Shown in pieces: positions 40,927 through 45,450 of a stretch of DNA of 64,000 bases. The stretch covers positions 372,001 to 436,000 of the forward strand of contig NZ_FTPP01000004.1 in assembly GCF_900156345.1 (NCBI RefSeq). The letters are read 5' to 3'. The stretch is from Pontibacter indicus (lineage in GTDB: Bacteria; Bacteroidota; Bacteroidia; Cytophagales; Hymenobacteraceae). The position numbers and the translations under genes were made by a program. Under the pieces are notes generated by a model. It searched no databases. It was not told the origin of the DNA and saw only the letters and a list, made by a program, of their open reading frames with translations. Numbering within the stretch: position 1 is the stretch's first letter; each line of letters begins with the position of its first letter.

Positions 40927-41514
40927 CTAGTTTTTGTTATCCTGCCGGAAGCGCATGGCGTTTTCCATCTGGGCTCGGATCTCTTTGGTGGTGTTGCGCG
41001 CCCATAGGTTGAAGGTGGTGTTGTCCGTCTGCTCGATGTCTTTCACGTTGTCTTCAAAATCTTTGAGCGCTTCTTTGTGCGCCTCAACCACGGTGTCCCA
41101 ATAGGCACGGTTAAACTCCTCCGGGTTCTTATCGCGGAGTTCCTGCACGCGGCCAGCGTGGTCGTCTTCCATCTGCTGTGGCAGGGTAACGCTGTACTGC
41201 CCTGACATGGCCTGTAGCTCGTCGAGTTTCTTGGTATAAAGGTCTACCATTTGCTGTCCGTAGTTGCGTATCTGGTCTGTGGTGCCCTTCTCAACTGCCA
41301 GTTTGCCCAGTTCTACCTGCTGGGTGCTGATGCTGTACGCTTTGCCCATAAAGGCGCGCTTGTCATCGTTCAGGGTAGAGTCCACGGCAGCGGTGGTGTT
41401 CAGTTCGGTATCCACATTGGCCGTAGTGGTATCGGTTTCCTGCGTTTCGGAGCTGCAGGCTGCAAAGGCGAGCGTGCTCAGTGCGAGCGTGGCTGCCATC
41501 CATAGGTTTTTCAT
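40927..41514 (-). CDS. DUF4142-like lipoprotein
   Basis: A 195-residue lipoprotein: lipobox 'LAFAAC' and a Thr/Asp-rich linker. A helical domain follows with 'KAYSISTQQVELGKLAVEKGTTDQIRNYGQQMVD' and 'AYWDTVVEAHKEALKDFE', matching the ferritin-like DUF4142 pattern. I start at ATG 41514 so the signal peptide is correct. Function unknown; such genes are often stress-related. It opens a run of stress/envelope genes. Confidence 0.85.
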   Translation of the reverse strand: MKNLWMAATLALSTLAFAACSSETQETDTTTANVDTELNTTAAVDSTLNDDKRAFMGKAYSISTQQVELGKLAVEKGTTDQIRNYGQQMVDLYTKKLDELQAMSGQYSVTLPQQMEDDHAGRVQELRDKNPEEFNRAYWDTVVEAHKEALKDFEDNVKDIEQTDNTTFNLWARNTTKEIRAQMENAMRFRQDNKN

Positions 41515-41699
41515 AGTCTTAGTTTTTGCGTTTCGTAATTTCAATCGTTTTAAGGGCATACGGAAATATGGTCGTTATATGTTCATTTTATTCTGTGCCA
41601 GCCTTTTCTGTACAGGCACTTGGCAAGGTATAAAGCACAAAGGCTCGACTTTGCCACAAGGGAAAAGCCAAGCCTTTGATTCGTTAGAAGGAGCGAGCC

Positions 41700-42236
41700 T
41701 TAGTAATAGATATGCTCTCCGCGGTTTTTCTGGAAGTGCTCTTCGAAGTAGCGGGCATCTTCTGATGTACGCGGCTTAAAGCCCAGCACAATGTTACCTT
41801 CTTTCACGCCTTCTTCATATACCTTGGCGCGTTCCTCAGGTACACCAGCACCTACCAGCGCACCGATCAGGCCGCCTGTCAGGCCACCTGCACCGGCTCC
41901 CGCCAGGGCGGCTGCCAGCGGACCGGCCACTACCAGACCCAAGCCAGGTATAGCTACAGAAGTACCAATTGCTGCCACGGCACCTACAATGGCACCCAAT
42001 GTACCGCCAATGGCTGAACCGGCTCCGGCACCTTCCAGTGATTTGTTGCCCAGTTCCGTGTCGCCGTCACGGTCTACGTCGCTACCGAAGTGGCGCTTGC
42101 GGCCCTCGTCCGACAACACGACGTTGATATCGTCTTTGTCATAACCGCGTGCACGTAATTCTTCATAAGCGCGCTCTGCGCTGTCACGGTCCCGGAACAT
42201 GGCCGTCATCATGGTCGCATCGTTTCGTTTGTCCAT
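41700..42236 (-). CDS. Glycine-zipper general-stress-type protein
   Basis: A 178-residue protein. The N-terminal 'MMTAMFRDRDSAERAYEELRARGYDKDDINVVLSD' is the YflT/general stress 17M-like ferredoxin-fold segment. A long Gly/Ala-rich glycine-zipper membrane region follows (~70-125), then 'GVPEERAKVYEEGVKEGNIVLGF'. Similar proteins accumulate under osmotic or oxidative stress; the mechanism is unknown. Confidence 0.83.
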   Translation of the reverse strand: MDKRNDATMMTAMFRDRDSAERAYEELRARGYDKDDINVVLSDEGRKRHFGSDVDRDGDTELGNKSLEGAGAGSAIGGTLGAIVGAVAAIGTSVAIPGLGLVVAGPLAAALAGAGAGGLTGGLIGALVGAGVPEERAKVYEEGVKEGNIVLGFKPRTSEDARYFEEHFQKNRGEHIYY

Positions 42237-42387
42237 AGTTTAATTGTTTAGTTTGTGTTTGTATTACTTCAGAATGTCTGCTTTTTGCAGATTAGTTTAT
42301 TGTAACGGCTCGCTTATGCTATGGTTGCAAATGAGCTTAGAAAGCCCGCGCTTATACTTTTATAAGATGTTCTTACAGGCTTCTAAT

Positions 42388-42420
42388 AAAAATAGCCTTC
42401 CACATGGGAAGGCTATTTTT
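42388..42420 (-). terminator. Terminator of the fasciclin gene
   Basis: A perfect 14-bp stem AAAAATAGCCTTCC/GGAAGGCTATTTTT with loop ACATG; T-rich ends in both directions. Confidence 0.92.
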
Positions 42421-42443
42421 ATAATAGACCAAAATAATGTTGG

Positions 42444-43133
42444 TTATTCTTTGTCAGTTACAGCGTCAGCAGTTACCAAAACACGGTCCACCACGTGGAT
42501 TACACCGTTGTTGGCTTCGATGTCAGAGTCTACAATGTTGGCACCACCAATAGTAAAGGCATTAGGAGCAGTGCCTGCACTGGCTACTTCAATGTAATCG
42601 TCCTGACCAACCTGGATGCGCTGGTTCGCCTGCAGTTGGCTTGTCATTACTTTACCAGAAATGATGTGGGCCTGCAGGATTTGAATCAGTTCGTTTCTGT
42701 TTTCTGGTTTTTTCAGGTACTCCAACTGACCGGCAGGAAGCTGCTTAAAGGCCTCGTTAGAAGGAGCAAAAATGGTAAACTCACCACCCTGCTCAAACGC
42801 TTTGGAGATATTGGCAGCCTGCACTAATTCCATGAAAGTAGAAATCTCGCTTTTGGTTCTGGCGGCATCCAATATAGCCATAGAGCTTGTCTCGGCAGTG
42901 GCATCCATTGTAGATGAAGTGTCCTCAGTAGTAGTGGTAGTTTCAGTGCTTACTTCAGTTTCTGTTGTTGTTCCAGTAGTAGTAGCGTCGTCACCAGCCA
43001 TAGTAGTTGTCTCACTCATGGTGGTGGTTTCGTCCATGGCTGTGGTGTCCATGGCGTCGTTACTACTAGCGCAGCTATATAAGAAGCCTGCAGCAAAAAC
43101 AGCAACAAGGGGTTTTAGCATTCGCATTTTCAT
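42444..43133 (-). CDS. Fasciclin-domain lipoprotein
   Basis: A 229-residue lipoprotein: lipobox 'FLYSC', then about 65 residues almost entirely Thr, Glu, Ser, Asp and Met (surface linker), then one FAS1 domain: 'STFMELVQAANISKAFEQGGEFTIFAPSNEAFKQLP' and 'NNGVIHVVDRVLV'. FAS1 domains mediate adhesion. The acidic Thr-rich linker resembles the mini-lipoprotein at 45166. Single gene in the stress cluster. Confidence 0.92.
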   Translation of the reverse strand: MKMRMLKPLVAVFAAGFLYSCASSNDAMDTTAMDETTTMSETTTMAGDDATTTGTTTETEVSTETTTTTEDTSSTMDATAETSSMAILDAARTKSEISTFMELVQAANISKAFEQGGEFTIFAPSNEAFKQLPAGQLEYLKKPENRNELIQILQAHIISGKVMTSQLQANQRIQVGQDDYIEVASAGTAPNAFTIGGANIVDSDIEANNGVIHVVDRVLVTADAVTDKE

Positions 43134-43232: not shown

Positions 43233-43268
43233 AGAGGACTATCTGTGTTTGAATACAGATAGTCCTCT
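43233..43268 (-). terminator. Terminator of the sigma/protease operon
   Basis: A perfect 14-bp stem AGAGGACTATCTGT/ACAGATAGTCCTCT with an 8-base loop; on the minus strand it runs into TTTTTTATAA. Confidence 0.92.
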
Positions 43269-43300: not shown

Positions 43301-44398
43301 TTAGTTATAAACTTTTACGACGAAAATATAGTCCTGAAGTTTCTTTAATTGTTGTGTGCGGGAAGCGCCGCTCAGGTTGTTTTGCTGCGGCAGGCTAACT
43401 GAAAGGCCACTTTCCCTTTCCTTCATTTCCTTTACCATTTGCAGTAGGTATGAGGACTTCACAGCAAAAGCGGCGCCTTCCTGACCTGCTTGCTTACCAT
43501 TGATCACACCAATCACGTTGCCTTTGTCATCCAGCAGTGGGCCACCACTGTTACCCGGGTTAAGCGGGATGGAAATCTGATAAGAAGTGGTGTCGCCTTC
43601 GAAACCCGAAGCTGAGCTCAGCGAGCCCTCGCCAAACACGATGTCCTCGCGCGGGAAGCCCAAGGTGTAGACACGCTCACCTAAATCAGAAGCGGTAGTT
43701 TTGAAGGTATAAGGCAGTTTGCTGAAACCAGCAAAGGCTGGGTCTTCCACTTTCAGAATGGTCAGGTCGTAGTCGATGTTGCGGTGTACTTCCGTAACCT
43801 TATACTTCAGACCAGCTTTGTTCTCGATCAGGATTGAGTCGGCGCCCTGAATTACGTGCGAGCTGGTAACGATGTATCCATCCGGACTGATGGCGAAGCC
43901 GGTGCCGCTGAAGCGGGCAGAACGCGGGGCCGGTGTGGCAGCATCCGCGCTGGCGATGCCGTTGATAATGGCACGTTGCTCTTTTTTGATTTTTTCTACC
44001 TCGCGGCGAAGCTCCACGTAGCGGGCCGTCTGCTGCTGTACGGGTTTCTTGATTTGCTGTACGCTCCACAATGTGCCAAACACAGATAGCAGCGAAACAC
44101 TGGCGGCAACCGCCATGGTCTGGGCGTGCTTCTTGAAAAAAACCTTCCAGGCTCTCAGTTCACTGTTGACAGACTGCGAACCGCCTTCCATTTCGGTGTG
44201 GATGCTGTTGAGTTTGTGGCGCAATTGCTGGCGCTGGCCATAGTGCTTCATGGCGTGCAGCACCTGCCGGTGCTCCTGTACCTGATCGGCAAGCCGCGGA
44301 TCGGAGTGCAACAGCGCCTCGAAGGCGGCTTTCTCCTCAGCGGGCATACTCCCAGCCAGGTAGCGCTCTATTTGCTCGTAAATGCGGTGGTCAAACAT
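43301..44398 (-). CDS. Anti-sigma-like / trypsin-like serine protease fusion, single-pass membrane protein
   Basis: A 365-residue protein with an unusual layout. Residues 1-90 are charged and helical like the cytoplasmic part of anti-sigma factors ('IERYLAGSMPAEEKAAFEALLHSDPRLADQVQEHR'). One membrane helix spans ~93-113. A short coiled stretch (~120-148) leads to a HtrA/trypsin-2 domain with an intact triad: His181 ('TSSHVI'), Asp211 ('IDYDLTIL') and Ser284 ('NPGNSGGPLL'). No PDZ domain follows. It lies 50 bases downstream of an ECF sigma gene on the same strand. I infer a sensor-protease that binds the sigma factor; direct control is not shown. Confidence 0.85.
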   Translation of the reverse strand: MFDHRIYEQIERYLAGSMPAEEKAAFEALLHSDPRLADQVQEHRQVLHAMKHYGQRQQLRHKLNSIHTEMEGGSQSVNSELRAWKVFFKKHAQTMAVAASVSLLSVFGTLWSVQQIKKPVQQQTARYVELRREVEKIKKEQRAIINGIASADAATPAPRSARFSGTGFAISPDGYIVTSSHVIQGADSILIENKAGLKYKVTEVHRNIDYDLTILKVEDPAFAGFSKLPYTFKTTASDLGERVYTLGFPREDIVFGEGSLSSASGFEGDTTSYQISIPLNPGNSGGPLLDDKGNVIGVINGKQAGQEGAAFAVKSSYLLQMVKEMKERESGLSVSLPQQNNLSGASRTQQLKKLQDYIFVVKVYN

Positions 44399-44448
44399 GG
44401 TTATATAAAAATACCTTTCACAAGGTGCTAAAAATCAAATCACTCAGG

Positions 44449-45021
44449 CTATACCTCTGGTTTATAGGAGGTGAAGAATAGCTTCTTGAGTCGTTGCAGG
44501 CACTTGTACTTCTGATTTTTGGCCGTGTCGGTGTTCGTGTAGCCAAACTTCTCCACAATGTCCTGCATGCCCTGCGCCCGAATGTAGAAGTCCTCCAGCA
44601 AAGTGCGGCAGGGCTCACCTAGTTGGTCAAGGGCCTCGGCCATCACGCCAAACTGCCTTTCGTTCTCCTCGTGCTGCGGCACATCCTCCTCCAGCGACAG
44701 GTAGTTCTCAGAGTCCTCTATGCGGTTGGCGTAGCGCCCTTTCTCTGCCAGTCGCTTCAGCCACAGCCGGCGGCACACCGAGTAGAGGTAAGTCTTGATC
44801 TGGCAGCTGAGTTCCAGGCTGTTGCCTTTGATCTTCTCGTAAAAGACGATCACGCCTTCCTGGTAAATGTCTTTTGCCTCGTCATCAGTTCCACTGTTGC
44901 TGATGATGAAATGGGAGATCATCGGGAAGTGCAGCTTATAAAGATGTGCGAGCGCGCGGTCATCATCATTCCGGATTCCCTCCATGATCGCCTCATCCGT
45001 CTCATACAAACTCTTCCTCAT
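44449..45021 (-). CDS. ECF-type RNA polymerase sigma factor
   Basis: A 190-residue sigma-70-family protein. Region 2: 'ALAHLYKLHFPMISHFIISNSGTDDEAKDIYQEGVIVFYEKI...IKTYLYSVCRRLWLKRL'. A longish acidic linker contains 'ENYLSLEEDVPQHEENE'. Region 4: 'LGEPCRTLLEDFYIRAQGMQDIVEKFGYTNTDTAKNQKYKCLQRLKKLF'. This is typical of Bacteroidota ECF factors. First gene of a two-gene operon with the anti-sigma-like protease fusion, and divergent from an acidic mini-lipoprotein that may be a target. Confidence 0.92.
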   Translation of the reverse strand: MRKSLYETDEAIMEGIRNDDDRALAHLYKLHFPMISHFIISNSGTDDEAKDIYQEGVIVFYEKIKGNSLELSCQIKTYLYSVCRRLWLKRLAEKGRYANRIEDSENYLSLEEDVPQHEENERQFGVMAEALDQLGEPCRTLLEDFYIRAQGMQDIVEKFGYTNTDTAKNQKYKCLQRLKKLFFTSYKPEV

Positions 45022-45055
45022 GCCGTTCTGATTTTAATACGCCAGGCCGCTTTTT

Positions 45056-45103
45056 GTAACCCAACAAAAAAATATTTTAAAAAAATAAAAAATACCGGGT
45101 TAC
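45056..45103. promoter_or_regulatory. Paired GTAACCC elements between sigma factor and lipoprotein
   Basis: GTAACCC at 45056-45062 points toward the lipoprotein, and its reverse complement GGGTTAC at 45097-45103 points toward the sigma gene. A very A/T-rich stretch separates them. The GTAAC core resembles ECF -35 elements. Symmetric placement suggests overlapping divergent promoters driven by the same sigma factor (inference). Confidence 0.4.
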
Positions 45104-45165
45104 CTATCCGGCTTTCCGGTATGAAGTTCAAATTCGAAACCAAAACACTTAATCACAAACACAAA

Positions 45166-45366
45166 ATGAAAAATTTGTTCAAATTCGCTTTCGTAGCGTT
45201 CGCCCTGGTAGCTTTCACAGCTTGCAACACTGAAGAAACTGCAACTGAAACTGAAGCTGTTGAAACTGAAGTAACTACTGAAGAAGAAGTTGTTACTGAA
45301 GAAGTTGAGGCTGACACTACAGTTGAAACTACTGTTGAGACTGACACTACTGTAACTGTACAGTAA
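45166..45366 (+). CDS. Acidic Thr/Glu/Val-rich mini-lipoprotein
   Basis: A 66-residue precursor: signal peptide with lipobox 'AFTAC' (Cys20), then 46 residues made almost only of Thr, Glu, Val and Asp with 'TEE'/'VET'/'DTT' repeats. No fold is expected; it may be a negatively charged surface or periplasmic tether. I chose ATG 45166 because it gives a correct signal peptide; an in-frame ATG at 45121 exists. It is followed by a strong terminator, so it is an independent transcript divergent from the ECF sigma factor. Confidence 0.75.
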   Translation: MKNLFKFAFVAFALVAFTACNTEETATETEAVETEVTTEEEVVTEEVEADTTVETTVETDTTVTVQ

Positions 45367-45408: not shown

Positions 45409-45450
45409 ATAAGAAGGCCCTGCAGCAATGCAGGGCCTTCTTATTTTTTG
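45409..45450 (+). terminator. Terminator of the mini-lipoprotein
   Basis: A perfect 16-bp stem ATAAGAAGGCCCTGCA/TGCAGGGCCTTCTTAT with loop GCAA, followed by T6. Confidence 0.94.

Follow-up and report, generated by a model that had tools for sequence, protein, structure and literature searches.

A predicted sigma factor circuit of Bacteroidota in which an anti-sigma-like domain is fused to an HtrA-type protease

Control of sigma factors and their anti-sigma factors by proteolysis is known (as reviewed in PMC7593790), and the control of many ECF sigma factors in the Bacteroidota is largely an open matter; according to one survey, class I anti-sigma domains adjoin only 6% of the ECF sigma factors in this phylum, compared to an average of 32% (PMC7406223). 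In the stretch of DNA that we analyzed (64,000 nucleotides of the Pontibacter indicus genome, referred to here as the window), an ECF sigma factor gene is followed by a gene encoding a chimeric membrane protein with an anti-sigma-like domain, a single transmembrane (TM) helix, and an HtrA-type protease. This locus raises the question of whether one protein can hold a sigma factor and also start the proteolysis that sets it free. We consider it rather likely that the locus is a conserved Bacteroidota envelope-stress unit, in which the chimera would hold the sigma factor and self-started proteolysis would free it to transcribe its own operon together with genes for small lipoproteins. The chimera would then be one recurrent answer to how ECF sigma factors are controlled in this phylum.

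Layout and distribution of the locus

The sigma factor gene (positions 44449 to 45021, minus strand) encodes 190 amino acids with matches above the curated cut-off of TIGR02937 (sigma70-ECF; 62.1 bits, cut-off of 42.9) and above that of the Pfam family Sigma70_r2 (25.2 bits, cut-off of 24). Fifty bases downstream on the same strand lies the gene for the chimera (365 amino acids; 43301 to 44398, minus strand), which was delineated from Pfam and NCBIfam profiles, conservation, and predicted fold, and a gene for a small acidic lipoprotein (66 amino acids; 45166 to 45366, plus strand), identified by eye and from its conservation, is oriented divergently. Terminator-like hairpins are found 3' of the sigma-chimera operon (43233 to 43268, minus strand; a 14-bp stem and then a T run) and 3' of the lipoprotein gene (45409 to 45444, plus strand; a 16-bp stem and then a T run), and since each unit is closed by such a strong hairpin, the locus comprises two compact transcription units. 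Farther downstream, the minus strand encodes several envelope- or stress-type proteins (40927 to 43133), namely, DUF4142, YflT-like (below the cut-off), and fasciclin proteins.

Full-length chimeras are present in each of the 37 genomes of the genus that were searched, the window's among them, and in 6 of 22 genomes from elsewhere in the order, a degree of conservation that excludes a chance arrangement. At least 17 full-length relatives were recovered among named genomes, where the matches listed include Hymenobacter, Mucilaginibacter, Daejeonella, Albibacterium, Chitinophaga, Sphingobacterium, and Pedobacter members as well as unclassified kin; the Hymenobacter proteins are 63 to 80% identical to those of loci in the same family. 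When 392 genomes were drawn evenly from the phylum, 32 of them (again counting that of the window) had a match to the chimera at an E value of ≤1e-40; among these, the match in G246 covered the protease part only, and five others started at residue 39 to 82. The 89 loci compared here consist of 37 from the genus, 6 from the order, 17 from named genomes, and 29 from the phylum draw (G088 and G246 yielded no locus), and they encode 88 distinct chimeras, with the proteins of loci L196 and L053 being identical.

In all 89 of these full-length loci, which belong to the Bacteroidota, the sigma factor gene is located directly upstream of the chimera gene on the same strand. The pairing of the two genes, first proposed for this DNA from the sequence alone, is therefore borne out well beyond the window. 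The novelty expected of the fusion was overstated, in that it is not unique to this locus and several Bacteroidota families encode a full-length chimera. The predicted unit of sigma factor, chimera, and promoter is widespread in this phylum, occurring in several families of soil and water bacteria.

Domains of the fusion protein

Residues 1 to 91 of the chimera (44126 to 44398, minus strand) are predicted to form a helical, anti-sigma-like domain, an assignment based on an AF2 model and its fold matches in the PDB. At the level of profiles, the resemblance to the NCBIfam antisigma model NF052375 is weak (31.4 bits for the whole protein, cut-off of 100), and 4 of 18 N-terminal domains matched this model at an E value of ≤1. 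Because a fold search with the whole protein was swamped by the protease domain, we folded and searched residues 1 to 91 separately. The isolated domain was modeled with a pLDDT of 88.6, and its two best PDB matches among the 16 chains compared were anti-sigma factors in complex with a sigma factor, RsiW (Z score of 5.9, root mean square deviation of 4.0, 70 aligned residues) and RslA (Z score of 5.5, root mean square deviation of 3.9, 56 aligned residues), although both scores fall within the middling range of the tool and come from a small helical domain. The domain could be placed in neither of two known classes. Zinc-binding anti-sigma (ZAS) factors carry the motif HxxxCxxC, which is absent here, since residues 1 to 91 contain no cysteine, and assignment to the RsgI type was rejected on the grounds that the RsgI N-terminal domain does not appear among the Pfam matches up to an E value of 1.

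The single TM helix spans residues 95 to 117 approximately (44048 to 44116, minus strand; boundaries drawn by eye) and contains a conserved XAA tripeptide, VAA in the window (residues 97 to 99; 44102 to 44110, minus strand). Both alanines, A98 and A99, are retained in all 88 distinct proteins, with VAA in 70, IAA in 14, AAA in 3, and LAA in 1. The genome of the window also encodes a site-2 protease (S2P) of the M50 family (208 bits), as do all 14 control genomes in the sense that each has an M50 member, such that the two sequence marks of regulated intramembrane proteolysis, XAA within the TM helix and an encoded S2P, are found together. XAA tripeptides in the TM helices of RsgI proteins have been likened to the SsrA tag, and ClpXP was reported to recognize the motifs of RsgI2 and RsgI9 when these were placed in chimeras (PMC12203970).

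The extracytoplasmic part contains an HtrA-fold serine protease domain (residues 158 to 330; 43409 to 43927, minus strand) with the catalytic residues His181, Asp211, and Ser284. Pfam Trypsin_2 matches residues 165 to 298 with 85 bits (cut-off of 27.6), and in the model of the whole chimera (pLDDT of 80.9, pTM of 0.55) the ectodomain matches the folds of DegS, HtrA1, and DegP at Z scores of about 20; fold and triad together identify it as a serine protease of the chymotrypsin/HtrA fold. The initial reading of this protein as an anti-sigma segment, one TM helix, and a trypsin-like ectodomain with an intact triad is upheld by the RsiW and RslA folds, the Trypsin_2 match, and the retention of all three residues in each of the overlapping sets that we compared (13 of 13, 18 of 18, and 89 of 89 loci). 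The chimera is nevertheless distinct from proteases of the DegS/DegP family, as no PDZ domain was found among its Pfam matches up to an E value of 1, and it was rejected as a DegS equivalog (TIGR02038) with 51.4 bits against a cut-off of 422.95. A conserved C-terminal tail, identified in alignments and in the model (residues 347 to 364; 43307 to 43360, minus strand), consists of a helix (residues 347 to 355) and a strand (358 to 364) ending in F-x-VKVY, and it is possibly a built-in stand-in for PDZ control.

Two other roles have to be weighed. The protease-like domain could be a sensor or binding module only, with a separate periplasmic protease making the first cut or the sigma factor being released by a conformational change. 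The S1C peptidase-like domain of RsgI9 has been reported to bind cellulose, and autocleavage of that protein was ascribed to its periplasmic domain (PMC12203970); moreover, a cleavage site was not identified in the chimera, and other targets of its protease are conceivable. We nonetheless regard a purely sensory role as unlikely, given that the triad is intact in all 89 loci and that the N-P-G-N-S-G-G-P sequence surrounding Ser284 is invariant in 13 of 13 proteins, as would be expected if catalysis were needed. Alternatively, the chimera could be mainly an envelope quality-control protease with a level that is set by the sigma factor, in which case the N-terminal domain would serve as an anchor and would not inhibit the sigma factor in response to a signal. 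The HtrA fold of the ectodomain fits such a role, as does the location of the gene in the sigma factor's own operon behind a sigma-type promoter, where a member of the regulon would be expected. The best fold matches of residues 1 to 91 are to anti-sigma factors, however, the sigma factor gene is directly upstream without exception, and an XAA tripeptide conserved in 88 of 88 proteins is not readily explained if the chimera is simply an anchored protease, all of which make this explanation quite improbable. We favor a course of regulated proteolysis that the fused protease itself initiates, with the chimera presumably cleaving itself.

Promoter motif and small lipoproteins

A shared promoter-like motif connects the two transcription units; it was noticed first in the window and then tested in other genomes. 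The predicted promoter of the sigma-chimera operon reads GGGTTAC-N15-GTAT(TAA) (45037 to 45062, minus strand) and that of the lipoprotein gene reads GGGTTAC-N15-GTAT (45097 to 45122, plus strand), and these two divergent sites are the only exact matches to GGGTTAC-N15-GTAT in the 4.57-Mb genome. With up to two mismatches allowed, matches in the window are at chance level (10 observed versus 9.64 expected). The GTAT of the sigma promoter lies just 15 bases from the ATG of the sigma factor gene (45021 to 45037), and the operon's transcript should accordingly have a very short leader or none. The downstream fasciclin, YflT-like, and DUF4142 genes were considered as additional sigma targets and rejected, as they are not preceded by the exact GGGTTAC motif.

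Exact sites with a spacer of 15 or 16 bases face both the sigma factor and the lipoprotein gene in all 37 loci of the genus. The spacers themselves average no more than 63% identity to their consensus on the sigma side (37 sites) and 70% on the lipoprotein side (36 N15 sites), which indicates that the promoter elements are kept while the intervening DNA drifts; the 100% identity of the -35 and -10 elements in the genus profile is an artifact of exact-pattern selection, and the spacer figures and the count of 37 of 37 are the informative values. Across the full set, GGTTAC-N14..17-[GT]TAT precedes the sigma factor gene in 87 of 89 loci, a sequence match from which use by the sigma factor is predicted, and in the two exceptions (L207 and L208) GGTTAC is kept and the -10 element is a variant.

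The 66-amino-acid product of the divergent gene has, as judged by eye, a basic n-region, a hydrophobic stretch ending in AFTAC, and an acidic tail; the phenylalanine at position -3 departs slightly from the typical lipobox. It scores 27.1 bits against the PG1828 family (NF050142), below the cut-off of 50. A small divergent lipoprotein gene stands behind GGTTAC-N14..17-[GT]TAT in 74 of 89 loci, and in 7 of these 74 two or three such genes are in view. The remaining 15 loci fail this strict definition, but in L049, L192, L198, L207, and L208 a divergent lipoprotein gene is found behind GGTTAC with a variant -10 element, and in L050 GGTTAC faces a divergent 95-amino-acid open reading frame (ORF) resembling the lipoprotein.

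Nine genomes were judged to lack a lipoprotein gene adjacent to the operon (G044, G039, G058, G049, G073, G415, and those of three Sphingobacterium species), and in all nine the motif precedes one or more small lipoprotein genes located elsewhere in the genome. These were recovered with GGGTTACN14-16GTAT in G039, G058, and G049 (where only matches with locus sequence were examined) and with GGTTACCTN12-13GTAT in G415 and the Sphingobacterium genomes. In G044 and G073 they were found solely with a relaxed third pattern, GGTTACN15-17TATTAA; GGTTACCTN12-13GTAT gave no lipoproteins in these two genomes, and the six GGGTTACN14-16GTAT matches examined in G044 have none behind them. Raw counts outside the genus do not exceed those of reversed-pattern controls, either for GGTTACCTN12-13GTAT (10 versus 20) or for GGTTACN15-17TATTAA (7 versus 8 in G044 and 2 versus 6 in G073), and the evidence there consequently lies in the location of the matches and not in their number: 6 of the 10 GGTTACCTN12-13GTAT matches are ahead of small lipoprotein genes, while the background rate, gauged in the window with a loose lipoprotein pattern, is 0.7% of positions.

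Within the genus, the motif is in numerical excess, with 209 matches in 50 genomes compared to 55 for the reversed pattern. Much of the off-locus excess seems to be explained by a second small acidic lipoprotein, which in the genome of the window has 76 amino acids (G000:C3:173203-173424; L287) and lies behind GGGTTAC-N15-GAATAAATAAGTAC. All 50 of the genus genomes contain a match to this protein, at a threshold that also admits other small lipoproteins. The off-locus matches examined were 20 sites chosen by eye together with a few seen in other loci; 10 of the 20 sit 25 to 41 bases ahead of the second lipoprotein gene, and the other 10 fall within coding sequence or precede different ORFs. 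Among 30 loci of the second lipoprotein, 25 ORFs were parsed, of which 21 are preceded by the strict motif and 4 are not, and the other five loci, that of the window's genome included, have GGGTTAC-N15-GAAT. The possibility that motif matches near contig ends mark rRNA flanks was discarded, as Rfam searches were empty in the five loci checked, of which four lie close to a contig end, and in each of the five the motif is ahead of the second lipoprotein gene.

The divergent lipoprotein could instead be unrelated to the sigma factor, with the shared GGGTTAC and GTAT elements resulting from another regulator or from chance. The four parsed ORFs that lack the strict motif are compatible with this idea, but the motif recurs ahead of nearly all sigma factor genes and most divergent lipoprotein genes in the comparison and was found again ahead of unlinked lipoprotein genes in all nine genomes without an adjacent one, and we therefore consider a coincidental association very improbable. 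The lipoprotein is thus well supported by comparison as a predicted output of the sigma factor, as had been suggested for the window alone, on the basis of the same promoter in both directions and of unlinked lipoprotein genes behind the same motif.

The mature lipoproteins vary considerably in charge. In the genus, the median net charge is -15 (44 proteins), compared to a median of -4 and a range of -22 to +7 in the other group (55 of the 99 proteins collected, a set that includes one protein of the genus [L153, -22] and one ORF that looks spurious [L193, 48 amino acids]). This spread indicates that acidity does not define the family, which is better characterized by small size and tails rich in D, E, S, T, A, V, and K. 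Several motif sites or tandem lipoprotein genes were observed beside the sigma factor gene in L020 (from G024), G064:C12, L048, L053, and L056, the last of which has three lipoprotein genes, and the copy number of these genes therefore seems to change quickly. The locus provides a likely context for tiny lipoproteins that family models hardly recognize.

Predicted circuit and related systems

In the circuit that we propose, the N-terminal helical domain of the chimera would hold the ECF sigma factor, as suggested by its fold and by the pairing of the genes, and the periplasmic HtrA-type domain would sense an envelope signal, probably misfolded protein. The protease would then cut between the TM helix and the protease domain, either in its own chain or in a neighboring chimera, after which S2P would cut in the TM helix, leaving XAA at the new C terminus for recognition by ClpXP and thereby freeing the sigma factor; the invariant XAA tripeptide and the presence of S2P point to these last two steps. 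Free sigma factor would transcribe from GGGTTAC-N15-GTAT, acting on its own operon (autoregulation) and on one or more genes for tiny lipoproteins, targets that are supported by conservation of the motif both at the locus and away from it. As effectors, the lipoproteins would act in the envelope-stress response, and, more speculatively, they may feed back on the protease.

Parts of this scheme have precedents. The sigmaE/RseA/DegS/RseP system of Escherichia coli likewise comprises an ECF sigma factor, a single-TM anti-sigma factor, a periplasmic protease with the DegS-like HtrA fold, and an S2P (PMC7593790). Here, in contrast, anti-sigma domain and protease are joined in one protein in which no PDZ domain was found, the operon consists of two genes with no RseB-like gene, and the targets predicted from promoters are the operon itself and tiny lipoproteins. 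Another parallel is RsgI9 of Clostridium thermocellum, a membrane anti-sigma factor that has XAA in its TM helix and an ectodomain resembling S1C peptidases; RsgI9 belongs to the SigI/RsgI type, is an orphan with no known sigma factor, and has a protease-like domain reported to bind polysaccharide (PMC12203970), whereas the chimera has no RsgI domain among its Pfam matches. The sequence-only reading had held that a self-contained sensor of this kind would be a new circuit, which was overstated given the precedent of RsgI9.

Removal of a membrane anchor by an HtrA-like protease also has a counterpart. HtrAw of Brevibacillus sp. strain WF146 is a TM-anchored trypsin-like protease whose N-terminal membrane-anchor domain is removed intermolecularly when a protein substrate is present (PMC5359297). 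It differs from the chimera in having a PDZ domain, and no anti-sigma function is ascribed to its N-terminal part in the abstract. Together with the recognition of RsgI XAA motifs by ClpXP, this self-removal of an anchor makes a self-started cascade plausible. Among the Bacteroidales, an ECF sigma factor involved in an envelope-stress response is similarly followed directly by a large and unusual anti-sigma gene, but the C-terminal domain in that case is a predicted outer membrane beta-barrel rather than a protease, and activation was reported to lengthen the O-antigen (PMC9308784). Searches of an open-license library, which lacks most subscription papers, turned up no account of this fusion in the Bacteroidota or of the promoter and lipoproteins that go with it.

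More tentatively, the loci compared here may represent a phylum-scale class of one-protein circuits that sense, cut, and release, in which an anti-sigma factor carries its own site-1 protease, cuts itself upon loading of an envelope client, and controls a regulon that scarcely extends beyond itself and a shifting collection of tiny lipoproteins of low complexity; we consider this possible but less likely than not. If it were so, the lipoproteins would constitute a dedicated device for envelope protection or homeostatic feedback and might act as a ligand or substrate of the protease. As the promoter can be read from the genome and the predicted target set is small, sensing, cutting, and output are each testable in a single locus.

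The F-x-VKVY tail of the chimera is strongly conserved across families. A tail that appears similar by eye is found in a group of secreted-looking trypsin-like proteases from other Bacteroidota (L065, L066, and L068 to L070), which have a protease domain 32 to 43% identical to that of the chimera but differ in having a signal peptide-like N terminus (also judged by eye), no anti-sigma domain or TM helix, and no sigma factor match in the stretch compared. This family is a possible donor of the fused protease domain.
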